NCBI GenBank assembly: GCA_002245135.1
Contig: NGBS01000009.1
Location: 1 to 64,000, forward strand
DNA from: Proteromonas lacertae
Taxonomy: Eukaryota; Sar; Bigyra; Opalinata; Proteromonadidae
Direction: 5' to 3'
Length of the DNA stretch: 64,000 nt
Part shown: positions 11-56,466 of the stretch, in pieces
Layout: every line of letters begins with the position of its first letter
Numbering within the stretch: the first letter of the stretch is position 1
Made by a program: the position numbers and the translations under genes
The notes under the pieces: model-generated
Databases searched by the model: none
The model's input: the letters and a program-made list of their open reading frames with translations, nothing else
Told to the model about the DNA's origin: nothing

Positions 11-3000
11 TTATATTTGTAACATTTGTTGTAGTTGTTGTGGTGTTGCTGTGTCTGCATTTGTTTCATAATCAGTTCTTCCAGTTGGTTTACTTCCTGG
101 TGGAGATAATGGCCTGATTTTATTGGCTAAATGAATTGATGAATATACATCCTTTTTCATTCCTTCTTTTTCTTTATTACTACTATTATCTGAAGATGGT
201 TTCATTGATGAATATTCTCTTACTATTTTATAGAATTTTGGAGTTATTATAATCAATGTTATTCCAATATTAATCAACACTATTCCTATACTCTCTAATA
301 AGAATTTAGCTGCTGGAGATGATGTTAATGTCATTCAATAGCGAAGTATAGAACAAAACACACAAATAAACATCCAATACATGCTGTTAATGTGTTTGAA
401 TCATTATAATCATCAACACAATTTCTAGTTGTATAGGAATAGTATAAACCTAATACAAAGATAAATAATAGGAATATAAAAAACACTGCATCATATACAA
501 CTGATCTATTACATGTTGGAATATAATATGAAACTAAATAATTACCTTCATCTGTTGAAATTTTTTCTTCATATTTCGAGAATGGATATATTAATCCCCA
601 TATTAATGATAATACCACAAATATTGATAAATAAAAAACAATCTCATAAATACTTCTCATTATTTATTCTTAACCTTTTCATATCTCTATTGTTATAAAC
701 TGCATGAATTCTCCAAGTTCTTAACACAATTATACAAGAGTAATTCAATAATAATAGATAAAAGATTGCTTGAAATACCATACACGTTCCATCACTATAT
801 TGAGATATATTCATTGGAATGATTGACCATAATATTGTACCACTGAATAAGAAATATATTACAAATGTATGACTTGCTGCTCTTATTATTTTGAATCTTC
901 TGAATTTAATTATAAATCCAATTACTATATAAATTGCTATTGAAACTAGTACCATTACTACTATCACAGCTATTAAACTATCACTTGTAATTCATATCTT
1001 AATAATAATGGTCCAACATTACATTCTGCTACATCACCATAATAAACTTCTGGATGTTTCATTACAGTAAATTTCGTATCATCAACCAATACTGGTATTC
1101 CTGACATACTTAATTCGGCTAATTTATTACTTGAATAAATTGATTTGTTACTGTTCCTTGTTTTTCCTGAGGATGTATCTATTAATATTAATTGACTAGC
1201 TCTTCGAATATAATCTAAGGAAACTACATTATCATTCACATCTAAACCATCAGATTTCATCAGATTTCTACTTTGAGTATATGAATTAATGAATATTTTG
1301 TAAATACTTTCAAAATCAGATATTGACTGAGATATAACATCAATTTTACCAACATTAGTATTTACATAGTTTTGGAAATTAATTGAGTTTATATTGGTAT
1401 TATCATTCAAATATGTTCTAGTTATTATATTTCCATACAATCTTGGCATTTTATCTGTTCCTAATTCATATTCATCAACATAATAAATAATTTGAAGTGC
1501 TCTAATATAAGATATTTGATTGATGTAAATAAAATCTTCAAAAATGTTAATTCATTACCATTTAATGAGTTTAAAATTAGTATTGTATCATTCCTTATAA
1601 ATTCTTTTATAAACATTACTGTTTCATTTATTAGTTTAGTTCTTTCACTATTTTCTATACCATCAAATACAGGAATTACATATGTTTTAACAATTACACT
1701 ATCTTCAATATATTCTTTTACATTTTTAGTTATATAAGCTATCAAATCATCCATATATCCACTTACAACCATACTTCTTGTATTAATAACATTATATTCT
1801 TAAATCCTAATCTTTGACTGAATTTCAATGATGGTCAATTCTACTCTTCATTGATGCAGAAATAAAGAATATATATTTATTACATATTGGCGGATATACA
1901 AATACAGTCGAATAAATCAATTTGTATTGATTTTTCTTTCATAATTGAGTAATAAATATCTAATCACATCCATAGAATTTGATGTAAATAATATCTTATA
2001 TTCATTGTTAACTTCAAACAAATTATCAAACACTAACTTGTCCTTATTTTCATCATTATAATATGGAAATACTTTAAATTCAATATGAACATTTGTTGAA
2101 AATTGAACTTGTTATTATCTCTAATTAATGAATCTATTAATATAATAATATATGTGATAATTTCTTCTGTTTTTCTTTAGAATAATCAAGCAATAATCCT
2201 ACTTTAACATTTACCTCTCTCGTTGTACATTTCTCAATATATTTATCATAATCTCTTGGTGCTAATTGATTAGTTACATCAATAATTCTTTTTCATTTCA
2301 TACTCACAGTTAAATTCTGTATGGAAATAATACCTTTGAATGTATAAATCACCTCCTAAATACATCGTTACTCCACTGTTAGAATATTGATGATTTATCA
2401 ACTGAGTGATATAATCTCTCGAAGTATAACTAGATAATAATAAATTTTTATCATTATTACTAGTGAATCTGTTTAAAACTAACTCTAACATCTTAAATGC
2501 TGAAAATATATCTTCTGTTGAAGAAGAATAGTAATTATCATAAGGGAAATAATCTTTACAATATTTTTGAAATGTTTTTGTTCCATTTGATAAGAATGAA
2601 TATGAAGAATTCTGTAATGCTGGTGTATAGGTTACTATTGATTTTACATCACATAAATATTTTTTATAAGAACCATGATTTGGTATTTCCATTAATGAAA
2701 ACATATTGTATATAATTATATCTTTTATTTTTGTCAATAATCCTTTCATATATATACTTATATTCTTCTCCAACATCATTTTTATATATTGAAACAATTA
2801 TATAACACTTATTCTTAGATGATTTACAATAATCATAAATACTATTATATAACTTTTTTTCTCACTCTCATCTTTATATAACTCATCATATACATTGAAT
2901 TGTTGATAATAAAGGTTTGAATCATTCAAACTTTTATCAATATGATCTATTAACAATTTAGACATGGGTGAATAATTATATAATATAATCACATCATTAG

Positions 3001-6000
3001 ATTCTCTTATAAATGATCTTTCATGTAAATATGAAATAATTGCTAATGAATTAGTCATATGAATGATATTATCTCTACATACTATTTGAGTATCATATCC
3101 AACTGTTAAATATAGTGTATCATTATAAAGATTAAGTTTGGAAACATCAAAAAATCCAAAAGATGTAAATACTATATTAATCTTATTCTTATGCATTTCA
3201 TCTAAATACTTTTGTAGTTCATTTACATCTCTCTTTTTCATATTATGTGATTTTACAGCTAAATATGTATTACTACTGAATGAATTTACATCATTATAAT
3301 CATCTACTAGTTTGACTAACATATAAACCGTTGAATTCCATTATAATAATCTTCAATAGTTAATGGTAATATCAAACCAATGTAATATAAATTCAATTCT
3401 TTATTACCTGAATGACTATTCATATCATCATTCCACATACAAGCTGTAAGTTTATTATTATTTCCATTATTAACACCATCAAAGTCATAATTATCATCCA
3501 TACTAAATAATAAAGCTGCATTTGGTGAAAATGAATATTCTATCAATTCTCCATTGAATTCATAATAAGACATTGTAATTGATTTTGTCAAATAATTGTT
3601 TCTTTGCATATATATTGCATTTCTATTATCCATTCCTTCATTTTCATAAGAATAACACTTAAAATTATATACATGTTCTCTAAAATGTTTATCATTTGGG
3701 GTTAATTGCCATATTCTTTCAAATTCGTACCAGAAATATAATATGTTCAATTCTGATACAACATCTCTACTAAGTTCTTTATCCAGCAATAATGAAGTAT
3801 AATCAAAATCATACAATACTTTGGAAATATAATTTTCTAAATCATCATCATTATTAGAGTCATATTTATAGTTATTCTTCTTACTACTAAACTTTCCATT
3901 CAAATTCCAGAAATGAGGTAAATATTTATATTTCATTGGTTTATTTTCAGGATGTTGAGACATATAAAATATATTATTTACATCTATTGAATTGGTTGTT
4001 AATAGTGTATTATTTATATAATCAGAATGTAATCTAAATCTTCAATATCACTTGAATCCATCATTATTGCAACTTTATAGTCAATAGATTTTTCTAATAT
4101 TCCATTCAATTCATTCTTACTTTCTTTAATATCATCAAATGTCATTGAATATATTTCTGGAATTAATAAATACTGTCCTGTCTTCTCAAATATTGATGTA
4201 ATTTTAACATAATCATTATCATGAATCACTACTAATATGAAATATCTAAATATATTATAAAATGTTTCTAAAACAACAGGAACATTACTCTTTGGCACAA
4301 ATGAACCATGATAACATTTTCAAAACAAAATGTCTCATTTACTTCATTGATTATTGTCACTTTGAAGTTTTTTTCCTTCCACCCAAATTGATAAACTTTT
4401 TCAAACATTCACTTGGTAAGTATAAATAAACAGTTGAATCATATTTGAATTGTTTAATTATATTCTCGAAATCATCACATTCTGATTCAGTTCTTAATAA
4501 ATAGCTTCTTATATCAAAATAATCGTTTGTGTCTTTTCCTAATATATTAAATCGTTCTTTAATTGGCATGGAACATTCCATAAATTTCATAATCTTTGTC
4601 ACTTCTAATCATTATTACTGTTTCTATTACAATTACTGGAACAGTATAAATATATTCTTCTTTTGTAAAATCACACATTTTCCCTTGGTTCAATTCCCAA
4701 TTAAATGCATATGGATATTCATTGAAATAATACCTCTTTAATATTTCAACTGTATTATTTGCATATACTCTAGCCAATTGATAATAATTGAAAATGTTAT
4801 TATTTGATGCTAATTGAGTTATTCCTTCATGACTATCAAAATCAGAATAATAAATACTTGATAAATTGAATTGAGTTATTTCATTGTTTCTATTCATAAC
4901 TATATCTGAATCTTTCATTTTTTGGAATAATTTATTTAGTATTATAAATGCCATAAATATATTTGACATTTGATTGAATGGTTCAGATATCATTGAGTAT
5001 TCATATAAGTACTTTAGAAACACTTTGTTCATATCACCTTCTTCATTATTCTTATTAAAATAACCACCTATTATATCAATTCTATCTTTCAAATAGAATG
5101 GCATTGTTTTAACATTCTTTTCTGTTAGTAATAATGCTATTATTCCCCACTTATCTCTATCCAAATTTCTTATATAAAACTCATATAAAACTGATTGAGA
5201 ATCTCCTAAATCTGTTGCTAAAAATATTACTCCAGCAAATTCCTCTATTACTCTCATTGAATCATTCATTTCTGTTGCATTTGACACATCAACACTAATT
5301 GATGGAGATGGACGATCTAGTCTGTCTTTTAACAATTTCTCCAATATATTCTTTACATCAATCGTTGATTGATCATTTGAATTATAAAATATATATGATA
5401 TATTAGTAAGATATCCATTCAATGCATAGTAATACATTGAATTGAAATAATATTGACTTGGAACTCCAGATGTTATAATTACGTTCTTATAACATATTTC
5501 GCCAGTTACTGGTGTAGTAATAAAATATAATATATCTTTATGATCATCTTTTATCTTATTGATTATTATCTTCATACATTCTTTTGAATTACCACTTATA
5601 ACTATCTTAAATCCTTCTTCTATCGCTTGATCAATTAATGATTCACATGTTGTTGTTGGTGAACTTTCTATATCAAATAACTTGTAAGAGATTTGATAGT
5701 TTTCATTTTCATTCTGTACATAATTATATCCTGCAATGGCAGATAGATAATTTGAAATATCATAGTAATTATCATTATGACTAATAGAAAATACCAAAGC
5801 AATTTTTATTTTCGGTACTTTTGTAACTCCTTCAATATTATCCAATATTCTATTCTTTGTATGTTCTACAATCGGTTGTAAATCACTAACTTCACATCTT
5901 TTACCACTGTATGGAGGAAATGGTTCAGATTTAACTGGCGATGAAGATTTAAATACAGTTTTAAACTTCAATGTAACATTATCACTTTTATCAACTTCTT

Positions 6001-9000
6001 CTAATTTTATGAAATAGAAATATCCTTGAAAATAATGATTCTTTCCTATATAAATCTACTCCAGCTGGTGTTACAATAGGAATCTTATAAAATGTATAAA
6101 TCAATTCACTAACTTCATTACTGTGTATTGTATGTGTCGAATATCTTAAGAACAATGGTATAGTATATAAATTATAAGTTAATCTAGATAGAGTTATATT
6201 TTTACCATATTTGTCATAATATCTATTCAATATTTCATAAGTTATTGAATTATCTTCTCCTTCTTCTTTAGCTTCAGTTGGATTAAAGATTGTGAAGAAA
6301 TAAGTATCTATTGTTGGTTGTACTTTATCACTTGCATCAAATGTGATTAAACCTGGATCAATATTTAAACATATAATTTTGCTTGAACTTCCAACCACAT
6401 TATAAGAATATAACTCTGTTAATAATGAACTAATTTGATTTGGAGATACAATTGTAACAATACAACTATTGTGACTTAAATATTGATTTAATGAACTTAA
6501 TATATTATAATATTGACTAGTATTATCACTAATTGCCAGTTTATAACTAATTTCCATTCCATTTTCTACAAACATATTCTCATATATTTCTAACAAAGTT
6601 TTATGTTTTTGAGTAACACTATATAACATTAATATATTCTCACAATTATTGATCATATATGATAGTCCAGGTTTCATTGACTCATAGATACTTCCACCAT
6701 AGAATAATATATTATTATTATTACATTTTGCTATATATGTATTACTTGCTACAATTAACAATATTGAATTATCATTTTCAATTTCATTCGATATTATTGT
6801 TATTAATGGATCACTTAAATAACCAATAAATATTCTAACACCTAAATCCATCAACTGTCTGAATGATATGATGAAATCTGTTTCATTTGTGTTGGATGTA
6901 TATGTTAATGATTTATAACTAGCTGTAACTCCTAATATACCTCCATATTTGTTGTTTATATTATCAATTCCACTTTCAAAGGATGTTTTTACCATTTCTC
7001 TTTCAATTCCAAATGTTTCATCATGTATTAAACCTAATGTGAATAAATTGATGGGTCTTAAATCTGGTTCATTTTCTTCAGTGAAATTACAATAATTTCT
7101 CATCACATTTGAATCAACATATAATATGTTTGATGTTTTAGTTGTTGAAACATAGCTAATTACATTAAACTGACTAATCTTTACTACAACTGAAGGTAAA
7201 CGTTCATACAGATTAGATTTCATAGAATTAATTCCACTTACAGTATCAAATTGTGTAGTTAAGCATTGTTCTTTGTAGTGTATATAAATCATATGGATTA
7301 TGAGATGTGATCTGATCATGGAAATTGAAAAATGCATCAGCTGCTAATAACTCATATATATAAAATATCTTATCTTTTCTATAAATTGTATGATATATAT
7401 TATCAAACAAATTACTTCGTTCTGTAGATAAGAAGAAATCAAATATTGTGTAAAAATAAATATTGTAATTTCTAGCGGATATAGCATTATCATTAAAGAA
7501 CGATGTTAATGCATAGAATTGATAATTTCCTCCTAATTGCATAGTAGAAAAAACATTCATAATTTGATTGGTTTTTTCTGCAATATTATATGTATTAAAT
7601 ACTATAATATTACCACCTGTTGGCATAAATGAATATATTTCTTTGATTATATTATCTATTGAAGCAGTATTATTTTCAATATCAATATATATTACATTTT
7701 CAGAAAATGAAATTGATTCTTTTATATTGTTAATGATTTTCACTTTATTTGGTATATCACTATGTAGAATTACTAATTTTCGATTTGTAGTATGAACAAA
7801 GTTATACATTGTTGTAATCAACAAATCATTTGCAGAATATGTAAATACTCTTGGACTACATTTCTCCAATGAATAATAATATCCAATATACCACAATTGC
7901 ATATCATATTGATCTAATTTCTTAACAATATGATCCATCATAACTCCTCCTAATACTCCAAACACATGTTTGATATTATATTTAGTATGAAATTCTTCAA
8001 ATATTTGACTTATCTCTTCTTCTGTATTTGCATGTTTTACTATTCCTTCATATTGAAATTTTGTATCAGCAACATTATTAAAATAAGTTCCCAGTGCATA
8101 TATTATCCTAGAAACCATTCCAGATTCATATTTTAACTTTTCACATCTTACAAACAACATACCAAACCTTACTTTAATTCTATTGGTGATGAATTCGTTT
8201 GTAACATTACTGTTTGAAGCAGATGAAGTAGAAGAAGTTGTCAATATTGTATCATATTTACTACAATCACAAACTTGACTATTTTCCTCAATAAACATTA
8301 TTGCAGGTAATGGATATTTAAAACTACTTGTAGGAAAAAAGTTATTATCACCATTTAAATCTACATATATTATCATAACAGTCAAATAATGAGATAATTG
8401 GTTACTAATTGAAAATGTCAATGGAGTATCTAAACCGATATTTAATTCAGTTTTTCTCATATTTATATCACAATTCTTTTCTTCTAAACAATTTGAATTC
8501 ATATTTATCGATAAAGTCAACATTGATTGTGCATAAAATAATGGATATAATAGATAATTATAATCATAATAAATATCTTCAAATTCTGTAATACGATCTA
8601 AAACAACATTAACAAACTTTGATTCACTTTCTTTTATATGATCTGAAATAAACATAAAATTATCTAATTTTGGATTATGTATTGTTTTAAGGCTTTTAAA
8701 CTTCATTAATGATGGTGTATATGAAGGAAATGGAAGTCTTGATGATTGAAATTCTGCTCCAACTTCTAATATTTTTTTATCATCATCTAAATTCACTAAT
8801 ATTCCACAATTACCATCTGGAAATTGAGTTTTTATATCTATAAATATATCACTTATTGATTTTGTATTGATTGAAGTTCTAACTACTTTCATATCTGTTT
8901 GATCTAACTTCTTCAGTGTTTTTATTATGTATTTATACATTTCATCATCATTCTCATCGTCTATATCAGTTATTATGTAAAAACTTTTCAATTTTGAGTC

Positions 9001-10133
9001 TAAAGCATAATAGATTACAGGAAAATAGAGTTGAATCAAATTGAAGTTTGTATAGAATAGATATGGTGAACAATCATTTTTCTCATTCAAATACAAATCA
9101 AATGTTATTATTTTCTTTCTACTGGTTATTTCTATCAGTTTCTTCATCTTCATGTAATTATCACCAGCTAAGAATGCGATTGGATTATATTTCTCTATTA
9201 ATTTTTCCACTTGAGTCTTTAACTTCTCAGGATTATTACTCAATTGATATTCTATTACTCTATATCTATACTTAGTATCATAAAACGAAACAGACATTAA
9301 ATTAGTCACTGTAAATAATGAATTCATTAACAATCGAGGAATTGTTTCAAATATACTGATTATTACTATAGTTTTACCTTCTTTTGTATAATTACTATTA
9401 TATTTACTCCAATCACATACACAATTCTCATTTACTGTTGATGAAGTGTGAGGAACTGGAAACCATTCATAATTGTAAATTATCTTCTTTATTTCTTGAA
9501 TAATGGTAAAATCTTTTGGATCAACTGTCTTGCATAATTTTGTTATTAATTGTAATGTATTTTCTCTTGTATATTGTACTTTATATTCTTCGCTGTAAAT
9601 ATCTAACGATGGTAAAATAGATAGAATATTATCAGGTGTTATTGATGTTAAAGTAGTGAATATTTGATATGCAATCTGAGTAGATAAATATGCAAAATAT
9701 GCAATTTCAGTCATCAAGTTGTTTGGACTTATTATTTTGTATGTATCACATATATGATTATTATTTCCACATTTACCATCAAAATACATTATAGTGTAAA
9801 AATCTTTCCACTATTAAAATATAACATATATAATATATATAAATACAGAATTATCATCAACATAATCAATATAAGATAATCCCATTATATAAACTTTAAA
9901 TTGATTTTCACTATATCCTTTACGACTGTATTGTTTCATAAATTCAGATGAATATGGTGGAGCTGTTATTGATATAATTAATATATTATTCTTTGTCTTA
10001 TATCCATCGATTGTTGTGATAATACTTTGAACAGAATTCTGAATATTATCCAACTGAATTATTAAAGATTCTAACAGAGTATTATTCTGTTTGATTGTAT
10101 TTTCTGCATATGTTTTAAGTGTTTTTGCAGCTC

Positions 10134-10168
<35 letters not shown>

Positions 10169-11723
10169 TTTATACTCAGTTTTTGCAGTAATTAATATCA
10201 CATCTTTCCTATCATTTTCCAAATTCAACATCAAATTTAAGATTGATGGAACAGTTAAACCTGTATTAAATACTCTTGGATGACAATACAAACCTGAAAG
10301 ATATCCGATATTGAAAATGACAGGTAAATCATCATGATTTTCATGATAGATATCTAATTGAGGTATATCTTTGTTTATAATATTTCCATGTGAATAATAA
10401 ATAATAACCTTTATTTTATTCTCTACATAATAATCATATTGTTCAGCAGGAGTATGTGAGTAATTTGAATCTACCAGTAATATCAGCCTTTTATTACCAA
10501 CTTTCTCAAGATTATTTGCATTTGCAGATATATATACACTGTTGAATATGGGAATGATATATTCAGCTTTCAATGACCTATCAGTAATTAATCCTATAAA
10601 AAAAACATCTTCTACCTCTAATTCACCTATTTCATTACATCTATTCTGATCTATTACACTAAAATCGTCATATGCCTCTAAAGGAAAGTAATTTCTGAAA
10701 TTGTGTATAAATTTGATATCTCCATTTGCTTGCACCTCTCCTAAATAGGAACTTCGCATAAAATATTGATTTGTATATAAATATATAAGATCCTCTGAAA
10801 CATATGCATTTATTCTTTTAAATGTCATATTTTGAATAAAAACCGATACAGGTACTTTGTATAAACTATCTATACACTGTAAAATCATTTTCAGGAATAT
10901 TCCACTGATATACAATGAATCAGTTAAATATTCACCTGAAGCTAGATTTAATGCTGTTAAAAATGCTTGATTCTCAGGAGATGGATAATTCATCAAATAT
11001 CCTGAATATATATAAGCACCAGCGAATAGAGTAGTATCTTTGTGAGTAAGGTATTCATCAGCACTTAGAACAGCTATTTTATACCCTTTAGCAGCAACAT
11101 TGTATTGGTTAAAATATTGGACTATTTTTATCTGTTCATCATACTTTCTATAATAATCAGCAATTGTAATGGCAGTTGTTGTATGTTCTAAGTTCTTCAA
11201 ATATTTTTCAGCATCTGCAATCTCCATTCTATTGTTTAAAATCTTTATACCAAGCAGCGTGTAAGTTCTGACCAATCTATTATAATCATCTTCATTATTA
11301 GTCAATATAATTGATTTATATTCACTATTAACTATAAATGAGTTGGCTATGATAATAATAAAGAGATTAAAGCATACCTTGATAATCTAAATTTCTGATA
11401 TTGATTGAATTAATGAGATTAGGGTTACACATTGGTTCAATATATTGATTAGCGACGAATAAAATATTTGACGAGTTTGAAGTGTCTATTAGGCTTTCTT
11501 TTTGAGATAAAAGAATGTTTATCTTGTGTCGTGTAACTGGCTCATTATATACATACTCTAACTTATCACTAATATTAAGATAATCTGTTAATTTGAAGAA
11601 AACTGGCTGAAACTCTGCTTCCGTCATATAGGACTCTAATACTACATTAATAGTAAGTCTGTCACTCAAGGCGACTAAATGGCCATAAAATATAAATATT
11701 ATAATATATATCTTGTAGAACAT
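11..11723 (-). CDS. Giant class C (GABA-B-like) GPCR with about nine tandem Venus-flytrap modules
   Basis: Roughly 3,870-residue membrane receptor. It starts at 11723 with a hydrophobic signal peptide (MFYKIYIIIFIFYGHLVAL). The ectodomain is a chain of ~395-residue modules resembling periplasmic binding proteins; the module at about 7100-5950 looks most like the UrtA/AmiC (Peripla_BP_5) type, with FTLGLIHDETFGIE at its start and TPAGVDLYRKESLF near its end. The C-terminus is a family 3 seven-helix domain: TM1-3 at 970-650 ending in the VLRTWRIHAVY loop, TM4-6 at 660-331 including NDS, and TM7 at 334-200 with SSPAAKFLLESIG and PKFYKI. There is no cysteine-rich domain before TM1, as in GABA-B receptors. 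Three introns are clear: 11347-11377, 10133-10175 and 9811-9846. Frame breaks near 7250, 5985, 4590, 4365, 4320, 4030, 980, 655 and 335 are each mended by one base, mostly in A/T runs; 1780-2280 and 2800 are also disrupted. It could be a recent pseudogene, but the mendable pattern favours sequence error. Ligand unknown. Confidence 0.8.
1021..11650 (-). repeat. Array of ~9 periplasmic-binding modules, ~1.2 kb period
   Basis: Protein-level repeat inside the giant receptor. A cysteine-containing linker followed by a hydrophobic beta strand recurs at about 10630, 9410, 8270, 7100, 5890, 4670, 3440 and 2240, plus one last Cys (codon 1021-1023) just before TM1. Examples of the linker are NENCVCDWSKY, SQVCDCSKY, RNYCNFTEEN, GKMCDFTKEE and AECNVGPLLL. 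The spacing is about 1.07-1.23 kb throughout. The modules are very divergent from each other, so the array is old rather than a recent amplification. Confidence 0.65.
10133..10175 (-). repeat. Intron made almost wholly of an ATT microsatellite
   Basis: On the minus strand this reads GTATAA, then about eleven ATT/TTA units, then TTAG. Removing it joins ITAKTE to AAKTLKTYAENTIK in frame, so it is an intron of the giant receptor whose body is a trinucleotide repeat. Confidence 0.75.
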
Positions 11724-21752: not shown

Positions 21753-23710
21753 ATTTCTATAGTATAAGAGAAATAACGAAATAATAATGTGTAAAAGAAT
21801 GTTAAAAATGAATTGAATAATAATAATAATAATAATAACAAAGGTTATTTAAATCTCAAATTTCAATTCTTTGTTTGGATGATTTTCTTTGATTATTCTT
21901 TCAATTTCTTCTTCATTTGTTATTTTGTTATAACTAATATTCAATTTCTCTAATTTTGTAATATATTGAATATTATCACAAAATACTTTTATACTTTCAT
22001 CTGTTAAATTATTATCTATTATAATATAGAATAAAATAAAATACACTCCAAACTTAAATATTCTAAATTTGGAATATCTTTCAAATGAGAAAAGAAGAGT
22101 TTAAAACCATCATCACCAATTTCACAATCTATTCATTGTAATATTAAAGTAATAATACAATAAAAACTCAACCATTTCATGTTTGGAAATAAATGTAAAC
22201 TTTTACTTAATATTTCCATTCCTTCTTTTCCTATTCTATTACCTATATTATTATAAAAAACAAATCTAAAAATACGTTCTAAATCCAATTTTTCTAATTT
22301 TGGAATGAATTGAATATTTTCTACAAAATATTTCATTCCATTTGAAGTAATATTATTAAAATCAACATTCAATTCCATCAACTCAGGAAGATATTTGAAT
22401 GATTTACATATATGATTAAAACCATCATCACCAATATAATTCACTATCATTATAAAACAAAAGTATAAATACATCTTAAGTCAATAATTGTAATAAGTGG
22501 ATATAATTTCAATTTTCTACTCAAATATAATGCACCGACTTCTTTTATTGGTATATCAAAAACTATTCAAATATATAATAATAATAATACATCTATAGTT
22601 TAAATCCAATTTTGTTGATTTTTCATTTATCTTATTTAAAGCATTATCTATTCTTTCTTCTATTTTATTCATATTAATATCATATTTATACTTATTTTTA
22701 CATCTAATCCTTCTATTTCTTCTTCTTCTTCTTTCATTTCAACTACTTCAGGTAAATGAATTGGATCATTTATTATCTTTAATTCATTCAATATTTCATC
22801 GATTGATATTCGATTATTCTTTTCTTTCAACATCATCTTATTTAATAAACCATTCAATTCTTTTTCAAATTCACATTCCAACTTCTCATATTTACATTCT
22901 TCAATATTCTTCATGGTTTTGAATGGTGTTTTATCTTTGAATATTAATTTACCACTTATCACATAATAAAATATACATCCAAAACTCCAAATATCACTTT
23001 CTTTACTCACTTCATCTCCAATTATTTCGTCATAACTAATAAAACATATATTACCTCTTTCATCTTTTCTTTTATTCTCATTTCCTTTGAATAATTCATT
23101 GTTTAAATAATCACTCAATATCACTTCATTCTCTTTATCTAAAAAGATATTAGAAGGTTTTAAATCACCATGTGACATATTCAACATATGTAATCTCTTT
23201 AAACCATTACATATTCCACATAATACAGCATATGTACCAATTTCTTCGAAATATTTCAAAGGATTTATCTTTCCTAAGTTTATTCTTATATAAGGCATTA
23301 ATAGATAGAATTTATCTTCAATCAACATCAATTTATGGTATTTCATCAGATTTTCATGTTTTTCATTATTCACTCTCTCAATCTTACTAAAAACACTCTT
23401 CACTACATCTTCATTCAACTTGGAAGTATTTATCACCTTCATAAACTCTCTAACACCATTCTCTTTATTTTTAACTACCATTAATAAACATTTCACACTA
23501 TCTTTTTCTTCTAAAACCTATTTCATTAGATTATCATCAATTTATACTTCATAGTCACTATCTAATACATTTTCACATTTTATATTAATCATTTTCACTT
23601 ATATCAATCACAATATCAATTCAAAAATAAAAGATCTCAAACAGAGAGTCGAGCCTAGATATGTTCTTTTTACATAAAAAAAACATAAACAAATAATAAC
23701 AAATAATTCT
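21750..23710 (-). repeat. Left arm of a large inverted duplication (kinase-LRR locus)
   Basis: The reverse complement of this stretch is highly similar, including non-coding flanks, to about 56350-58690. At one end the word GTAAAAAGAACATAT is shared. At the other end TAACATTCTTTTACACATTAT is nearly shared (20 of its bases match in order). The arms are ~32.6 kb apart and inverted. Confidence 0.85.
21849..23592 (-). CDS. Atypical protein kinase with C-terminal RI-type leucine-rich repeats
   Basis: Starts at 23592 (MINIKCENVLDSDYE). A 30-nt intron leads to a kinase domain: MVVKNKENGVRE (possible VAIK Lys), SHGDLKPSNIFL (HGD for HRD), LSDYLNN (DYL replacing DFG) and ESDIWSFGCIFYYVISGK. After a short linker come at least four ~28-residue leucine-rich repeats of ribonuclease-inhibitor type, such as GDDGFNHICKSFKYLPELME and TDESIKVFCDNIQYITKLEK. 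Short introns (~27-30 nt) fall at the same point of successive repeats, right after the LxL strand. A frame change near 22665 is mendable by one base. The DFG change makes catalytic activity doubtful. Target unknown. Confidence 0.7.
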
Positions 23711-23748
23711 AGATATAAAATAATATAAATTTCAATTAATAAAAACAA

Positions 23749-26700
23749 CTATGGAAAATCACTCAGAATCACTTTCTTCTTCAACTTCATTATCTTCTTC
23801 TTCTCTTTCATCCATCTTCTTTCTTCTCTTTCATCAGCATTAACTCCTTCATCTTCATTTTCATCATTTCTTAATAATCTCATAAAATGTTTTAAACTCT
23901 TATATTTTTTATCATTCATTATATCTGCATATTTACTTAGCAATTCATTATATAAGCATTCTCTATCAAAATCATTGATTTTATTAACAAATTTCTCATA
24001 ATATTCTAATATTTCAACATTATTATCTTTTATACTTTTCTCTATTCCATTCATTAATGATTTTATGAATAGTTTACTTTTATTCTTTATATAACCTACT
24101 CCCATTAAACGATGAAACTTCTTCACTATCTCATTCATTCTATTATCATTTTATTAATATTATATATATATATATACGATGATGATTTATTTTTATACAT
24201 ATATTCAATAGTTTTAAATATTATTTCATAATAATAATATATCTGTTTTTCTTTTAAAATATTCAACATTTCTTTATAATATATATCATATTGTTTTTGT
24301 TTTACCATCTTTTCTAATATCAAACATATCTCTTTGCTACTTCCATTGTTTAAACCAACATAAAAATAACTTTGCATCAATTCACCTATCTTATTTATAT
24401 CACAATTATTTGAATTATTTAATATCAATTCATTTATATATTTACTCATATAATTATCAATATCTTCATTTTTACTTTTGTAATAAAATATCTCATTTTC
24501 ACTTAATACACTTACGTTTCTACAACATATGCTTCTTAAATTACAGTATAATTGGAATAATTTTATATCATATATATCATTATTATTATCATTATATTTT
24601 TCTATATAAATCATAAAGATGCCATCAATCATTATATATAGTTCATTTATAACATTACTATCTACTGATTCATTATTCTCTACATTATTCATTATTAAAT
24701 GTAATAATGAGTTGATTATGATTGATATACAACTATAAACACATATTTTATCACTTTCATCTATCTCATCTTTTATTTCATTTATATAATTGTATAAAGT
24801 CTTTATAAACTTCATTTCTATCTTCTTTACATCATTGTATTCGATCAAATAACATAATCTTTTTAAACACATATCTCTGTTGACTTTATTATTATTATTA
24901 TTGATTAACTTTAAGGTTTCTTTACAACAGGTTAGATATATATCATTAATTATCTTTTTAACCATCTCTTTAGAATCACTAGAAGTAATTTCTAAACGGC
25001 AAAAACACTTTGAACATTCCATCAATATATCATCTTCCATTTTTATATTGTAGATATCTTTGATAATTTCCAACATTATTCTTAATTCATCTTTACTTAT
25101 ATCACATATTATATTATCTAATTCACATACACTGTACATTCTTATTAACATTTCACATATTCTATTATCATGTTCAAATGAACGAATTAATTCAGGAATT
25201 CTGTTTTTTAAACCATATTTTATTTCATTATATTCTCTTTCTATTTTGGATTTGTTTGGATTTCGTTTTAAACTATCTTCATTGTTGTTTATCTTATCTA
25301 ATAATGACCAGTAACAGCATAACATTAAACTCTATAAAAGAATTATATATATTAATGAAATGTATATATATATACGATATAATATTGATATTCATTAGAT
25401 ATAGGTTGTTTTGGTTCAATTAATAAGTTGTATAACATATTGAAATTTAATATTTCTTTGTTATTATTATAGTTTAATAAACAGTTGGTAAAATTCATTA
25501 TTTTCTCTTCCATATTAATCATATTGTTGTTGTTGTTGTTCTTTTTAAGTGTTTTATCAATTACATCTATTATTCTTATAAACATCTTTTCATAATTATT
25601 TTCTACAGTATCATTGTCTTCATTATTATCATCACATATATCATTCATTAAGAAATTGATTGCACTGTTTTGAATCTTATTATTTTCAATAAATAATAAC
25701 TCGTAGACTTTATAAACCTTTTCATCATCAATATAACTGTATTTATATAATAATTCTAATAGCACCAACACATCACATATCACATTCTCATCTTTATCAT
25801 TTAACATACTGTAAATACGATCAAGAAAATGAGATGTAAATCCACTCATTTCATTCAAAGTTGATTCATTCTTATATAATTGAATTAATACATTCACACT
25901 ACTATCTCTAACTTTAGGCTTCATATCATTCAAACACCAGCCATAATATTTCGTATAATTATCTTTGATATAAACAGTTGGTCTAATAAAGAACCATTTA
26001 CCGAAATATCTCAAACATTCTTCTCTTATTATTTCATTTATATCTTTATAACGATGAACAAAAACACTATTGAATATTGTATTTACTATCTCACATAGGT
26101 AATTCATATTGTTTTCTATATTATTTATATTCATCTCCTTCATTCGGTTATTATTATTATTTTTCTTCTTTCCAGTACCATTACCATTTATACTACTCAT
26201 CTCTAATTCATCGATATCACTCTTATAGTTTTCAATTATTGATAATAATTCTTCACCAATTATTAAACTACTTATTGTACTGATATGTCTTAATTCTTTA
26301 TAACAACAACTACTCATTGAAACTAATAGCCTTATCCATTCTGGTAATAATTCAGCTTCCATTAATATTGTATCTTTACTTTTCATTATTAAATCTCGTA
26401 AGAATCTTTCATATTTATTTCGATATTTCTTTTCGTTTGATTTTGGTTTATTCCATATTGTTTTTTCTTCTGGTTTTTGTTTTAATAAGCCAGCTAAAAT
26501 AAAATCGATATTTAAAGATTTGATATCCTCAATATCATCCATATTCGGTATTGTTTTAAAACCAACCGGATTTAAATACACAAATTAACCAATTTTTGAA
26601 AGCTTCTACTGGATTCGTTCTGAACAGGGAAATAAATTGAGTGGCCAGTTGACTGGACTTGATTGGAGTTAATAAATCTCTTGATAAGTCTAATGTGGAG

Positions 26701-32767: not shown

Positions 32768-33122
32768 TTTATTTTATTATAATTGTATTAGAATGTGTTT
32801 ATTTTTAACATTTCAAAAATAGGTTAATGAAAAAATACCCCACAAAATTTTGATCAAGCCAAAACTTGCCAACGGATTTCTTTCATTTTTTGATTTTAGC
32901 ACGAAATTGAGTATATTATAATATAAAATCCTCTCTTTACTTTTACTGCACTAAATTCTATTGATAGAGCTTATAATATCCTTGTTTATTCACTTACATT
33001 CATTAATCTCGTTGTTATAACTATTTATATCTATTAATTATTCTCAATATTATTTAAATCTATTAATATATGCTTTATAATGATCAACCATTTATTATCT
33101 ATTTTTTAGATTAATAGTAGAA
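32768..33122. promoter_or_regulatory. Upstream region of EGF-repeat copy B
   Basis: About 355 bp. It carries TCAAGCC at 32854-32860, immediately followed by CTTGCCAACGGATTT at 32865-32879; the latter is identical to a word upstream of copy A. Exact 15-bp reuse in A/T-rich DNA suggests a shared control element or recent duplication of the promoter. Confidence 0.45.
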
Positions 33123-34355
33123 ATGAAATATATACAAATATTTTTATTGATATTAGCTGCTTATGGAGCTCAATGTCCAAATCTTTGTAGTAGTCATGGT
33201 AGTTGTAATGCAAATGGTTTGTGTAATTGTTATCCAGGATGGACAGAAGGTGATTGTTCTGCAAGAACATGTCCATATGGTGAAAGAATTGCAGATCCAG
33301 ATGGACACAATGAAGAGAATTACTTAGAATGCAGTGGTCAAGGACATTGCAATAGAGTATCAGGTGAATGTGAATGTTACCCAGGTTATGCAGGTTCGGC
33401 TTGTCACAGAACAGAATGTGTAAATCAATGCAGTGGTCATGGTGTTTGTACAAAAGTTGGTTATTTAGGAATTGAATATAATACATATTTTGATCCATAT
33501 TATTCTGATGAGAATAATAGATTGAGTGATTATAATAGTTGGGATAAAGAGAGTATGTATACTTGTGTTTGTGATAAAGAATATACTGGTTATGATTGTT
33601 CACAGAGAAAATGTGCAACTGGTTATAAAGAAACTAGTGAGTGTGATGTTTCTTCTATTTATACACAAACAATTGCATTATCAAAAAGAAATACTGAATT
33701 GGATGGTTGTTTAGCTTATGCAGAATATACAGATACATTTAATAGAACTTGGTATACAAGACCATTTAATATATTTAAAGATATGACAAATGATGAATAT
33801 ACATCATTAAACAATATTGCAAATAGGAAAGTTAAGTGTGGTAGATATACTCCTCAATTTCCATCATTATTAGAAGCATTGAAAACTTTACCATCAGGAA
33901 CAATTGATGTAACTGAAGTTAGTTTTGAAGTAAGTAGTACAAATGTATTTATTCATATTACATATGGAACTCAACAAACAGGAAGACAACAACCAATTAG
34001 AATTATTACAGCAGAAGATGAACCATTAGCATCAGCTTTAGCTGGAGATGCACAATATTGTGCAAATGTTCCACAAGTCAAACCAATTCAAGAATATAAA
34101 AGTGGTAATTCTGATACTTATAAAGATTTAATTGCAAAATACAAATGTCCTGGTAAAAATGGTAATCCTGACAAATGTAAAGCTGAAGATTTTAAAGCTA
34201 ATTATCTTCATGCCTATGCACTTCCAGTGAAAACAACATATGTTCCACCATTAGAATGTGCCAATAATGGATTATGTGATAGAACATCAGGTTTATGTCA
34301 ATGTTTTGAAGGATATTATGGTTTAGCATGTACTGAAGCTACTCCAGTAGTTTAA
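33123..34355 (+). CDS. EGF-repeat secreted protein, copy B (mastigoneme-like)
   Basis: Intact, intronless 410-residue secreted protein. It has a signal peptide (MKYIQIFLLILAAYGAQ), then EGF-like modules CPNLCSSHGSCNANGLCNC, YLECSGQGHCNRVSGECEC and CVNQCSGHGVCTKVGYLG, then CVCDKEYTGYDCSQRKC. A ~190-residue region follows, with LPSGTIDVTEVSFEV, and a last EGF module (CANNGLCDRTSGLCQCFEGY) just before the stop. Such [CSGxGxC] modules are common in stramenopile extracellular and flagellar-hair proteins; the role in flagellar hairs is inference. No transmembrane segment is visible. Confidence 0.82.
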   Translation: MKYIQIFLLILAAYGAQCPNLCSSHGSCNANGLCNCYPGWTEGDCSARTCPYGERIADPDGHNEENYLECSGQGHCNRVSGECECYPGYAGSACHRTECVNQCSGHGVCTKVGYLGIEYNTYFDPYYSDENNRLSDYNSWDKESMYTCVCDKEYTGYDCSQRKCATGYKETSECDVSSIYTQTIALSKRNTELDGCLAYAEYTDTFNRTWYTRPFNIFKDMTNDEYTSLNNIANRKVKCGRYTPQFPSLLEALKTLPSGTIDVTEVSFEVSSTNVFIHITYGTQQTGRQQPIRIITAEDEPLASALAGDAQYCANVPQVKPIQEYKSGNSDTYKDLIAKYKCPGKNGNPDKCKAEDFKANYLHAYALPVKTTYVPPLECANNGLCDRTSGLCQCFEGYYGLACTEATPVV

Positions 34356-50877: not shown

Positions 50878-53800
50878 ATGAATATTGTAACAATAATTCT
50901 TGTTACATTATGCATCAATATAGCTTATTCAAATGGTTGTATATTTTAATCAACTTTATTGTTCTTAGCTGTTCCAAAATTAAATACTCCTAATGTGGTT
51001 CTATCAAGTATTACTAATAGTTCTATGGTTTTACATTGGTACGCTCCTTTTAATTTAGAAAATACTCCTACTGAATATGAAATACAATACAGTAAATTGG
51101 GAGATGATTGGGAAAATGTATATGGAACAATAGGGAGTATATCAGAACCTCAACATGAAATCCTTTGGATTGAAGTAAAAGGTTCAGATTCTGCTCCAAT
51201 AAATGGTTCTTTCCGTCTATATCTCAATTATTATACCAGATATCAACAGCCTGTTCATTTCGTTACAAATGAAATACCATTTGACGCAAAAGCAGATGAT
51301 ATAAAAACTGAATTAGAGCATCTAACAGGAATAACTAATGTTCATGTAATAGAAGGAGTTCCAAAACATAATTCCATAGTAGAAGGTAAATCATCTTGGA
51401 TAGTGATATATGACTATAGACATGATATTATCGGTGGAAATATTGTACCGCAATTACAAGTATATGATGAATCGATGAATACTAATGATGACAGAGAAGA
51501 TATACCACCAACATTAAAAGGAGATATTCAATGTATAGAACTATATACAGGAAATGGTAAAGAATTATCAGGAGAGTTTTCATTACATATCAACGGACAT
51601 GAAATATCAGAAATATTAGTAAATATAACAGCAGAAGAATTAGAAAACAAATTAAAAGGAATATTTCCAAATGTTAAAGTAGAAAGACCAAATGATTATT
51701 ATTCCGTATTAGAGTATTATGGATATGACACTGATTTTCAATCTTGGTGTATAACATTTTCCACTGAAAAATCTATTCTTCCAATCTTAATCCATCCACC
51801 ATCTGGTAATAATGGAATAGTAAGAATAGTTCAAAAATATGGTGAATATAAAGTAACGAATGTTCAAATCCATGAGTTAAGAAGACAAGGAAGTAATAAT
51901 ACTTTATGCTTTGGAGATTGTTATCAATTAATTGATAATTTATATCCTAATTCAGGTTATATTTATAGATTAAAATATAAAGTTGAAGTATATTATATTA
52001 TATTCATTTTATTATTATTATTATTTTAGACTGATGATTGGTCTGAATATACATCTTCCTCTCAGATATATTATACTCTTCAATATGATGTACCATCCCA
52101 TCCAGTACCTCCATTATTTATTAGTTCAACTAAAACATCAATTAATGTTGAATGTATTTTGTCTAATGACAATGGAGCTAAAATAACAGATATTACATTT
52201 GAGATATCTGATGAAAATGATAGTATTTTATAAATATATTATTTATTTATTTATAATAGAATCATTCATGTGGAGAAAAGCAGAAATTGTTAAGACTAAA
52301 AGAGATTTCTTACATTATACAATTATAAGTATATATTTTTTTAAGTAATTATTTATTTATTGTAATAGAGTTAAATCCTGATAGTAGTTACTATGTAAGA
52401 GTGCAAATGCATAATTCAGCTGGTGCTAGTGATTATAGTAATCCAAGTAACTTAATGAAAACTCAGCCAGATTTACCATTAAATCCACCTAAGATATATA
52501 TTGAATCTGAAAAGACAACTACTTATAGTATTACACTGTTTTGGCTTCCTGTTAAAGATAATGGTATTCCAGTTGATTCATATTCTATTCAATATAAAAC
52601 ACAACCATTTGGTTTTTGGAACAATATTCGTTATGCTGTATCAGCTGTTAATTCAAACATCAAAAGAGAAGTATATATATTCATATAAATATTTTATTTT
52701 TGTACAATAGATACAAACAATTCAATGTAATGTTCCGATCAAAGAAATAGAAAGTACAGACACATTTACATTAGAATTTGGTTATAAATATTCAGTAGAT
52801 AGTATTAAACCAAATAGATATAAAACTAAACCATTATCATTCAAATGTACAGCAGAAGAAATGAAAAATGCATTGAATGCTATTCGTCCTCATTCTATTT
52901 ACCATATTGATAGAATAGTTGAAAACTCGAGATATGTATGGAGAATATACTTCAATTATTATCAACAATCCTTCACACTTCCTTATCCATTACTCAGATT
53001 AAGTGATGCTTCATTTTATGCTTCTGATGAGTATAGTGAATCATTTACATTTATGAAAATTCAAGAAGCAACACCAGCAGTGTTTAAAGATGTTTTATCC
53101 TTAAAAGTGGATGGTTTAACAAATTATACAACTTATATATTCCGATGTAAAGCCAATACAATAGAAGGATCAACAGAGTGGAGTGAAGCAACTTCACCAG
53201 AAACAACGAAAGCAATAACAACACTTCTACCACCATCCAGAATACCTTCCATAGTAATACCAACAATAGCTGCAACTGGAAGATATGCAGCTAATAGAGA
53301 AGATCCTGATTATGTAGGAGGAATTGGAAATGGTGGATCTAAATACAGTAAAGGTGAGAATGGAATGATTGTAATATCAACTTGTAATACTCATGGTCAT
53401 TTAATACCTAAATCATATTATTATTATAAAGAAGTAAATAATGAACCTGTAGTTCAGAAATATAGAGTAAAAGCACCTCCAGGTGTTACTATTGATTGTT
53501 TAGAGATAAAAGCATGGGGAGCTGGAGGTGGTGGAAGTAAAAACAGTACAGGAGGTGGTGGAGGATTTGCATTTATCCAAATGAAGACAAAGAATAATGA
53601 AGAATATGATATATTAGTAGGTGAAGGTGGTTATGCTGGATTGAAAGAAACAGGTGGATTAGGAGGTTGGCCAAATGGTGGTAAAGGAGGAAATGGAAGA
53701 GAAGCAGGTGGAGGTGGTGGTGGTTATTCTGGTGTATTTTACAAAGGTTCTTTAGTAGTAATAGCTGGTTCAGGTGGTGGTGGAGGAAGTACTGATCATT

Positions 53801-56319
53801 TGAGTAGTAATGGAGGCCATGGAGGTGGTTCAGATGGTGGTGATGGTGATACTCCAATTATTCCAATTGATAAAGCTAGTGGATATGCTGGTTATCCTCC
53901 TGATTATGTTCACACTGATTTAGAGATATATAGTACTAATAATTATGATGTATTGCCAAGTGGTGGTAAAGCTGGTACAATTTCGAAAGGTGGAGATAGT
54001 GGAAGACAATCATCATTCCAGTATGGAGAAAATATTCATTATATTGATGGAGTATATTTATATTTATATATTATAATTATTATAGAAACCATTATTAGAA
54101 GGTGAAACAGGTTCATTCCATCCTCCAACAGCTGGTTATAGTTTAACAGGAGGTATAGGTGGTAGTAGTTTAGAAGGAGGAGGTGGTGGTGGTGCTGGTT
54201 ATTATGGTGGTGGTGGTGGAGGTGCTGGTATTGATGGAGCTGGAGGTGGTGGTGGTGGTTCATATGTTAATATTACTCATATGTATAAAGATCCTGAAGA
54301 TACAACTCCAAGTCAAGATCCTCAAGATATAAAACCATCATTTTATGTAATAAGAATAATGTGTAATAATATAACAATAGGTTGGAATGGTGCATTTATT
54401 GCTCGAAATTATCCTGATGTAATATCAGTTGGAATAGAATTTGCAGTTGGTTTATCTACTTTGAATTTCACTTATGTTGATGTAGTTCCATTATTACAAT
54501 CTCAATTCACAGTAAATGATTTAATTCCAATGGATATATATCGTATTAGAATATTCTATGTTTATCGTACCTTACCAATATCATTATATTCCGATCCATT
54601 AACATTTCCAAACACCATTATGTCGAACAAATGATTGGAATGAATTAGATCCAAGACCAAATATAAATATAAAGAATGAAAGTTATCGATCTCCTGATTA
54701 TCCAATCAAAGCCATTCCATCTCCAAGAAGAGGTCATACACTTGCAGTAGTTGATAATTATGTTTATATGTTTGGTGGTTTTACTGAAGGTTATAATTGT
54801 GAAATATTACATGGTTATGAATGTTATGTAGGTAGTGACAGTAAATCATATTGGATTGATTCAGAAGGTAAAATAAGTGCATTAGATACAACGAATGAAT
54901 TATGGAAATTAAACCCAATGTCAATGATATTTGAAGAATTAATTCCAGATAATGGAACAGATCATTCCTGAACCAAGAGAATTACATTCAGCTTCAGTAG
55001 TTAATAATACAATGTATATATATCATATTTATATTTATTATAGTTATATATTTGGTGGAAGAAATGGTGAAGATGATAATGAAGGAAGAGATGATTTTTG
55101 GACATTAGATATTGATAGTGATGAATATAGATCATTTGATTATAATAATTCTACAACATTGAATGAAGGAAAGAATGTTTATACATATATTGAATCTTCA
55201 TCAAATTATAGTGATAGTTACTGTTTATCATCTATAAATGTGACAATTACAATAAATCATCGATGTGTAGAAGAATTGGATATATTCTTAATAAAAATTG
55301 CGAATTATGAATTAGATGGAGCTGGTTTAAAAAGATTGAGATTATGGAGATCAAATAATAATGGAATTTGTCATAATTTCACAGTATATTATATAATTAT
55401 TTGATTATTTGTTTATTTATTTATATAGAAAGTGACATTTAGTGATAATGGAATAGATGTAAGTCTATTAAGAAAATATGAAAATTCCATAATCAAACCA
55501 ATCGATTTATTCTCTAATTTTATGAATACTCATTCTTCCGCTAATTTTTCATTACAAATCATTGATCGAGTAAGTAATGGTAATGCTGGTGAATTAGTAG
55601 ATTGGAGTATATCAATTGCATCTCATCATTGTCCATTTGTATTTAATTGGAGAAAAATCGAAAGTGTTAGTGAAAATAAACCTCCTAGACGATATGGTCA
55701 TGCTTCAATCGTATTGGATAATTCAATTTACATATATGGTGGTTATAGTAAAGGTGTATTACATGATTTATGGCGATATGATATATATGATAATAAATGG
55801 ACTGAATTAATATCTCCTTCTGATATTCATATTCCTTATTCATTTCGTTCAATGTTAGTAACTCCTTACAATTTAATGTGTTATGGTGGTTATTCTTCTA
55901 GTGGATATAGAGAAGTAGATCAAATCGATGTATTGAAAAGATTTACTGAAGAAATCGAAGTAAGTGGAAATTCAACAATGAATAGTAAATCACATCCTGT
56001 ATCTCGTTATATGACTTCAATGGTTCTTACTAAATCTAGATATAATGAAGATCAATATATAATGTATGGTGGATATGATGGTATTCGAATATATGGTGAT
56101 TTATGGAGTTTGACATTGAGTGAATGGGGAAATAAAAGAGCTGAATTAGCAAAAAGCTATTTGGATGATCATTGTCGATTATTGGATAGTTCATTAGAAG
56201 TAGTAGAACATTGGGTTAATAGTTGTGGTGCAGAAAAGCCAAGTGAGGTTTGCAATCCTTATGAACTTCTTGATTATGCTTTTTGTAAGAATACTTATCA
56301 AACAATTGGATTTTTGTAA
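50878..56319 (+). CDS. Large secreted FN3 / Gly-rich / Kelch / P-domain protein
   Basis: About 1,700 residues. The signal peptide (MNIVTIILVTLCINIAYS) is followed by a short intron. Domains in order: fibronectin type III (SSMVLHWYAPFNLENTPTEY); two modules of the G.F.L...T..I...A..L...L type (PINGSFRLYLNYYTR; LSGEFSLHINGHEIS); further FN3 units (SSYYVRVQMHNSAGASDYSN; YTTYIFRCKANTIEGSTEWS); a glycine-rich block (GGGGGSTDHLSSNGGHGGGS); Kelch repeats (RRGHTLAVVDNYVYMFGG); a proprotein-convertase P-domain-like segment (NVTITINHRCVEELDIFLIK; GELVDWSISI); more Kelch (RRYGHASIVLDNSIYIYGG); and a Cys-containing tail. There are many ~30-nt introns (for example about 51989-52029, 52231-52260, 54050-54085, 55381-55427) and a few one-base breaks. 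It is likely an adhesion, matrix or cell-surface protein. No C-terminal TM is evident. Confidence 0.75.
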
Positions 56320-56466
56320 TTAATATAATTTATCTAAAGGTTATTATTATTTTTATTATTATTTCTTTATGTTTTTATTTTTTATGTAAAAAGAACATAT
56401 GTAGGCTTGACTCTCTGTTTGAGATCTTTTATTTTTGAATTGATATTGTGATTGTTATAAGTGAAA

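Follow-up and report, generated by a model that had tools for sequence, protein, structure and literature searches.

From the sequence of its genome, Proteromonas lacertae (Opalinata) appears to encode giant class C G protein-coupled receptors (GPCRs), in which a signal peptide, nine Venus-flytrap (VFT) modules of the type of the urea-binding protein UrtA, one GABA-B-like seven-helix transmembrane (7TM) domain and a short tail follow each other in a single chain. We consider this architecture, and its occurrence in an old and large family, nearly certain. The gene from which the analysis started lies on the minus strand of an AT-rich stretch of 64,000 nucleotides (the window) at the start of contig NGBS01000009.1 (here C160) of assembly GCA_002245135.1; the genome searched comprises 50.2 Mb in 1,181 contigs. 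A first-pass annotation of the window had proposed a class C receptor with about nine chained modules. The number is nine (M1, outermost, to M9, membrane-adjacent; Table 1), and it is firmer in ten paralogs (10/10) than in the window copy.

A profile search of the genome returned 132 matches to 7tm_3, fragments and allelic copies included. By our own count, 36 of the 132 lie in open frames of at least 2,000 amino acids (aa), the longest having 3,672 aa; four of these 36 are interrupted by stops within the match, and some duplicate one another. Such frames exceed the length needed by a receptor with one flytrap. Ten paralogs were fetched, chosen for long open frames, and neighbouring stretches were joined into spliced models. 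All ten models display nine VFT modules, spaced by about 390 residues, followed by one 7TM domain; this number covers the ten long-frame paralogs as a part of the 7tm_3 family. Eight models measure 3,778 to 3,931 aa. Those from C116 and C1001 extend past the stop, and those from C713 and C356 probably begin without the true start; the latter two are also the exceptions to a hydrophobic N-terminal stretch seen by eye in 8/10 models. The first module hidden Markov model (HMM), also applied to the ten models, had been trained with window pieces and the paralogs' own modules, and hence does not count as independent evidence. With it, M1 of C1163 and C1001 scored near noise; leave-position-out HMMs, for which each of M1-M3 was omitted in turn, recovered the two at 9.2e-4 and 7.6e-5.

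In the window, the earlier description of a cysteine-containing linker recurring at even steps of about 1.2 kb was borne out, as were both ends of the gene. Nine linker motifs start at positions 10648, 9432, 8283, 7100, 5902, 4684, 3444, 2235 and 1029, their eight steps measuring 1149-1240 bases; since one module already precedes the first linker, after the signal-like start, the modules number nine. The last linker, AECNVGP, leads straight into the class C seven-helix domain, again as annotated, and 7tm_3 matches two window frames (the two best at 3.8e-12 and 6.4e-9). An HMM built from the ten paralogs, with no window sequence in training, matched M2-M6 of the window, M6 being the best (E 2.3e-33), and matched none of 1580 shuffled frames. 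It gave no match for M7-M9 in window frames, and these three are recognised solely through near-identical copies of the gene. In the copy on contig C158 all nine modules were matched, the weakest being M7 (E 0.0018) and M1 reaching 3.8e-7 with the paralog-derived HMM, the search space behind these E-values being very small; its 7TM domain matched the paralog 7TM model at 3.3e-37. Pfam scanning of window frames found Peripla_BP_6 (8.3e-12) in the frame holding M3 and M4, and among the frames with M5-M9 nothing convincing (M5 frame) or nothing (M6 frame). Predicted introns of the paralogs are mostly 27-60 nucleotides (nt) long, lie mainly in the first half with few near the 7TM domain, mostly start with GTA and end with TAG, and often contain AT microsatellites. 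Three window introns in the 5′ third, with GTA...TAG ends by eye, are of the same kind.

Comparison of paralog profiles or sequences with solved structures matched each of M2-M9 to UrtA, AmiC or both, and the earlier remark that one module looked UrtA/AmiC-like was correct, if too modest. Profiles of M2 (3.4e-17) and M4 (3.4e-14) matched UrtA/AmiC-type structures. M3 matched 8tg1, which is labelled as an extracellular ligand-binding receptor and nothing more specific (9.4e-24), and AmiC (1.8e-15); M5 matched 8tg1 (1.1e-51) and the urea-binding 8hic (1.5e-50); M6 matched AmiC (8.7e-21); M7 matched 8tg1 (3.9e-24) and UrtA 7s6f (4.6e-20); and M9 matched UrtA 7s6e (2.4e-34). One M8 with its linker, used as a single sequence, aligned with UrtA 8hic_A (residues 26-399 of 414), including the GYxCDW tail (2.6e-19). 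M1 gave no direct structure match, and Pfam, applied to one paralog, did not match it there. It was found by a model of other positions in 9/9 tested cases (E at most 9.2e-4), and hhalign of M1 against M2-M9 returned 87-98% probability, the 7TM control 0.05%. M2-M9 are hence predicted to adopt the UrtA/AmiC-type fold, with M1 tied to them by profile comparison alone.

Three protein searches were made in databases that seem poor in eukaryotes. A frame of 3,181 aa returned a single metagenomic relative, and this genome's own paralogs were not returned. M9-7TM as a single sequence gave zero matches. The M9-7TM alignment gave seven proteins as large as UrtA, each lacking a 7TM domain; three of the seven carry a name, and all three are urea-transporter binding proteins.

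The receptors belong to class C by their 7tm_3 domain and the extracellular VFT modules that precede it; in the protein P0001, 7tm_3 is matched over positions 2-251 of 251 (1e-37). A usual, though not strictly defining, trait of this class is a single VFT per chain, and the ten models have nine. To our knowledge, characterised class C receptors carry at most one flytrap per seven-helix core. Among the best 60 of 88 listed matches of the 7TM profile, the top GPCR chain is GABA-B2 (6uo8_B, 4.5e-30), and Pfam found no NCD3G nine-cysteine domain in P0001, which points to the GABA-B subfamily. GABA-B subunits thus resemble the receptors in having the nearest 7TM domain and a VFT joined to it without an NCD3G match (P0001), but carry a single VFT, of a different type, in place of the nine UrtA-type modules. 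By profile, UrtA and AmiC share the fold of M2-M9, with one M8 aligned nearly over its full length. Unlike them, the modules here are chained, eukaryotic and anchored in the membrane by a GPCR, and the residue quartet that contacts urea in UrtA is lost.

Papers are cited here by PubMed Central identifier and for the portions available to us. Diatom class C candidates (PMC3727952) of 300 to over 1000 aa are basal to GABA-B, and seven have a periplasmic-binding-like domain; these microalgal class C receptors resemble the present family in carrying such a domain, and that portion mentions no chain. In three gut fungi, about 100 class C GPCRs are described, around half of them with a type II binding domain (PMC5168858). 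Their binding domains are likewise of bacterial type, but the folds are type II binding or pectin-lyase and the N-terminal part has 200-1600 aa. In Amoebozoa, family 3 receptors carry an ANF domain, a BMP domain or none that is recognised (PMC10445921), choanoflagellate ones have 5'-nucleotidase and ephrin-receptor-like domains, with ANF in other opisthokonts (PMC12716839), and neither family C nor D GPCRs are reported as identified "in all ciliates" in the portion available of PMC9960496. Outside GPCRs, the bacterial importer GlnPQ (PMC8025302) also places binding domains of different specificity in series before one membrane part, but it is an ABC importer with two domains. The phrase tandem Venus flytrap occurred in one paper among the matches listed, on EvgS-type sensor kinases (PMC8174306), which are bacterial histidine kinases. 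No multi-flytrap GPCR was found among the matches listed from open-licence titles and abstract starts, which is no proof of absence in print. The nine-flytrap chain, conserved by position in ten paralogs and a metagenomic relative, indicates that class C receptors can be built at quite a different scale. It also bears on the origin of the class by fusion with bacterial binding proteins, here of UrtA type as against the ANF type of animals.

The chain is old. A tree was built from 94 modules, of which 89 come from the ten paralogs and five from the metagenomic protein P0002. Every one of the nine positions forms its own clade (supports 0.90 to 0.997), with poor support for how these clades branch from each other. 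P0002 is a frame of 2,250 aa on a metagenome contig with M3 to M9 in order, both end modules partial, and is 47% identical to P0001 over 71% of the latter. Mean module identity is 22-40% at the same position and 14% within one gene. As the positions are monophyletic with the metagenomic relative included, the nine-module chain was complete before the ten paralogs diverged, and at least its M3-M9 part predates the split from the metagenomic lineage. Mean identity among paralogs climbs from 0.22 (M1) over 0.40 (M9) to 0.50 (7TM), and the rank correlation of conservation along the chain is positive in 35/36 pairs with all nine modules. In one pair, C713 and C140, the outer half is 47% (M2), 46% (M3), 46% (M4) and 42% (M5) identical and the inner half 70% (M6), 91% (M7), 100% (M8), 100% (M9) and 95% (7TM). 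This could reflect recombination or gene conversion that joined different outer halves to one inner half; alternatively, it could be an extreme instance of the general gradient.

The linker of M8 aligns with the C-terminus of UrtA, and so the recurring linker is, in M8, the UrtA C-terminus; the linkers of the other modules presumably have the same origin. A cysteine occurs in the last 45 residues in 9/9 of M1, in 10/10 each of M2 and M4-M8, and in 2/10 of M3. The motif C[DNST][FWLY] is found in 7/9 of M1 and, for M2 to M8, in 8, 1, 10, 5, 10, 9 and 9 of 10. Across 79 modules of M1-M8 (M9 omitted), the linker cysteine and a GxEC cysteine are both present in 68 and both absent in 8, with the linker cysteine alone in 3 and the GxEC cysteine alone in 0. 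The GxEC cysteine is present in a single M3, together with the linker cysteine, and one of the three lone linker cysteines sits at the start of the next module. This co-occurrence, whose significance is inflated by the relatedness of the modules, suggests that each linker is tied to its module by a disulfide.

In periplasmic-binding folds the chain enters and exits a module in different lobes. We hypothesize that each module closes on a small ligand and that every linker is held to its module, probably by the conserved cysteine pair, so that closure of any module would move the chain. M9 and the 7TM domain, the most conserved part, may form a common transducer, like a GABA-B subunit on a G-alpha protein (G-alpha genes gave 12 matches in the genome, at about five places after merging of pieces). 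The faster-evolving outer modules might provide varied inputs that tune the receptor to mixtures of small, probably nitrogen-containing solutes. Architecture and mechanism, taken together, have in our view about an even chance of being correct. A wider proposal is tentative and somewhat doubtful: the receptor as a chemical sensor with nine inputs, in which nine different pockets report to one GABA-B-like transducer, in possibly a hundred genes partly reshuffled by recombination among paralogs, amounting to a combinatorial chemosensory repertoire derived from a captured bacterial urea/amide-binding protein. If true, a single cell would command such a repertoire, with one receptor reading many chemical inputs. 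Whether closure far from the membrane reaches the 7TM domain, and whether one GPCR integrates many ligands, become testable with this chain.

Several observations weigh against this interpretation, most of them from the pockets. In UrtA, Ser122, Gln144, Tyr190 and Asn246 hydrogen-bond urea (PMC10392092). This quartet is complete in 0/94 modules, with two of its residues in 3, one in 21 and none in 70; these counts were taken from a single alignment of highly divergent sequences. Urea, as which the ligand suggestion of the first-pass annotation may be taken, is rejected as it stands. Conservation of the pocket columns exceeds that of random columns in M1, M2 and M5 only (nominal P 0.02-0.05 in nine uncorrected tests), and does not do so in M3, M4, M6, M8 and M9. 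In M7 the pocket varies more than the remainder of the module, possibly because it is a specificity site, possibly through an effect of the alignment. On these sequence comparisons, not every module need bind a ligand. Furthermore, the two tandem binding domains of GlnPQ are reported to act largely independently (PMC8025302), and coupling along the receptor chain is therefore not a given. Finally, the window copy is not intact as assembled, open frames existing in its copies.

A serious rival, quite possibly correct if still short of probable, holds that ligand binding is confined to one module or a few (M9, perhaps M5 or M7) and that the others are dead binding domains forming a rigid stalk, which would lift the sensor beyond the cell coat or serve adhesion. 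The missing urea quartet fits such a stalk, as do the least conserved outermost modules, the cysteines at two pocket positions of M1 (9/9) and the probable disulfide clasp, which would stiffen the chain. It accounts less readily for the constancy of nine modules in 10/10 paralogs with orthologous positions in the metagenomic relative, or for charged pocket residues specific to a position: M9 has Arg at the Gln144 position in 9/10 and Asp at the Glu146 position in 9/10, a pocket that would suit a zwitterionic ligand. The M5 pocket is the nearest to that of UrtA (W120 in 7/11, E146 in 8/11). Pocket residues differ by module position, and the alignment shows pockets changed relative to UrtA, the identity of a ligand not being given by residue counts.

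It appears very improbable that the window copy is a decayed pseudogene and that our description concerns a dead gene. Besides its introns the copy has a dozen or more frame breaks, all below about 7.3 kb, and it is strongly diverged from the ten paralogs. Contig C159 carries the same gene, 98.8% identical along 9.67 kb. The alignment contains 47 gap openings: 45 fall in 0-7 kb of the window, 2 in 7-8 kb and 0 in the remainder, which ends at 9.6 kb. A few breaks may be common to both copies, for example near 1.8 kb of the window, which would favour decay, but most are different. The copy on C158, itself broken near its own contig end, is 98.8% identical over 11.5 kb and stays open in one frame for 2,623 aa through the broken half of the window, hence most of the window breaks are not gene structure; a further copy, on C899, is open and 95% identical over a stretch of 870 aa. 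As breaks lie near contig ends and differ between copies, we infer local sequence errors rather than decay.

We regard as very unlikely a nine-fold avidity device or dose counter in which every module binds one identical ligand, although all modules share a single UrtA/AmiC-type fold. A mean identity of 14% within one gene and pocket residues that differ at each position argue against it, and they also speak against the earlier suggestion that the same ligand is bound many times. An artefact in which neighbouring genes or a tandem assembly error are taken for one chain might be suspected, as frame breaks had to be crossed at a contig end, but other parts of the genome already refute it, with open frames of 2,000 to 3,672 aa and ten spliced models that share an identical order of nine modules, as does the metagenomic frame, in which M3 to M9 follow each other.

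Contigs C158/C159/C160 (aligned) and C134/C1000, C18/C957 and C842/C1106 (equal scores only) appear to be allelic or duplicate sets, and gene counts from this assembly are hence inflated. Genome searches gave at least 112 matches each for Peripla_BP_5 (112 of 683 first-look candidates scored) and Peripla_BP_6 (97 of 513 candidates scored). A UrtA-like match at C158:28828-29871, in an open frame of 383 aa, is perhaps a stand-alone binding protein. Strong matches to ANF_receptor at C992:123771-124619 (6.4e-38) and C244:37744-38714 (8.6e-18 and 2.7e-15) perhaps represent a flytrap type different from that of the UrtA-like chains.

Table 1. Parts of the receptor gene in the window, with the evidence for each.
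Feature	Position	Strand	Evidence
Whole receptor gene	11..11723	minus	ATG 11723-11721, stop 13-11; sequence and paralog models
N-terminal signal-peptide-like segment MFYKIYIIIFIFYGHLVALS	11664..11723	minus	sequence; hydrophobic starts of paralogs seen by eye
VFT module M1, outermost	10649..11663	minus	Pfam Peripla_BP_5 2.1e-4, under its cut-off
Intron 1, 31 nt, GTATG..ATAG, within M1	11347..11377	minus	by eye; resembles paralog introns
VFT module M2, linker cysteine NRCNEIG at start	9433..10648	minus	paralog-only HMM 3.4e-7
Intron 2, 43 nt, ATT microsatellite, within M2	10133..10175	minus	by eye
Intron 3, 36 nt, within M2	9811..9846	minus	by eye
VFT module M3, preceded by linker NENCVCDWSKY	8284..9432	minus	paralog-only HMM 5.1e-16
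VFT module M4, preceded by linker NSQVCDCSKYD	7101..8283	minus	paralog-only HMM 4.7e-13
VFT module M5, preceded by linker RNYCNFTEEN	5903..7100	minus	paralog-only HMM 1.9e-21
VFT module M6, preceded by linker KRCEVSDLQP	4685..5902	minus	paralog-only HMM 2.3e-33
VFT module M7, preceded by linker GKMCDFTKEE	3445..4684	minus	weak; copies 0.41 (C159), 0.0018 (C158)
VFT module M8, preceded by linker ACMWNDDM	2236..3444	minus	via copies only, 6.4e-9 (C159), 1.2e-8 (C158)
VFT module M9, membrane-adjacent, preceded by EKCTTREV	1030..2235	minus	via copy only, 2.5e-5 (C158)
Last linker AECNVGP and class C seven-helix domain; RTWRIH after TM3, PKFYK in TM7	212..1029	minus	Pfam 7tm_3
Cytoplasmic tail, ending in TPQQLQQMLQI	14..211	minus	sequence

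Elsewhere in the window, GC skew is extreme at 22001-26000 (-0.545, -0.399) and 56001-58000 (+0.506), where the GC content is 21-25%. Teneurin-type EGF repeats are present in an open frame at 33084-34355 (Pfam 8.8e-17). On the plus strand, a series of large open frames at 50950-56319, one of them with an ALK/LTK-type glycine-rich match, perhaps belongs to one large surface protein.

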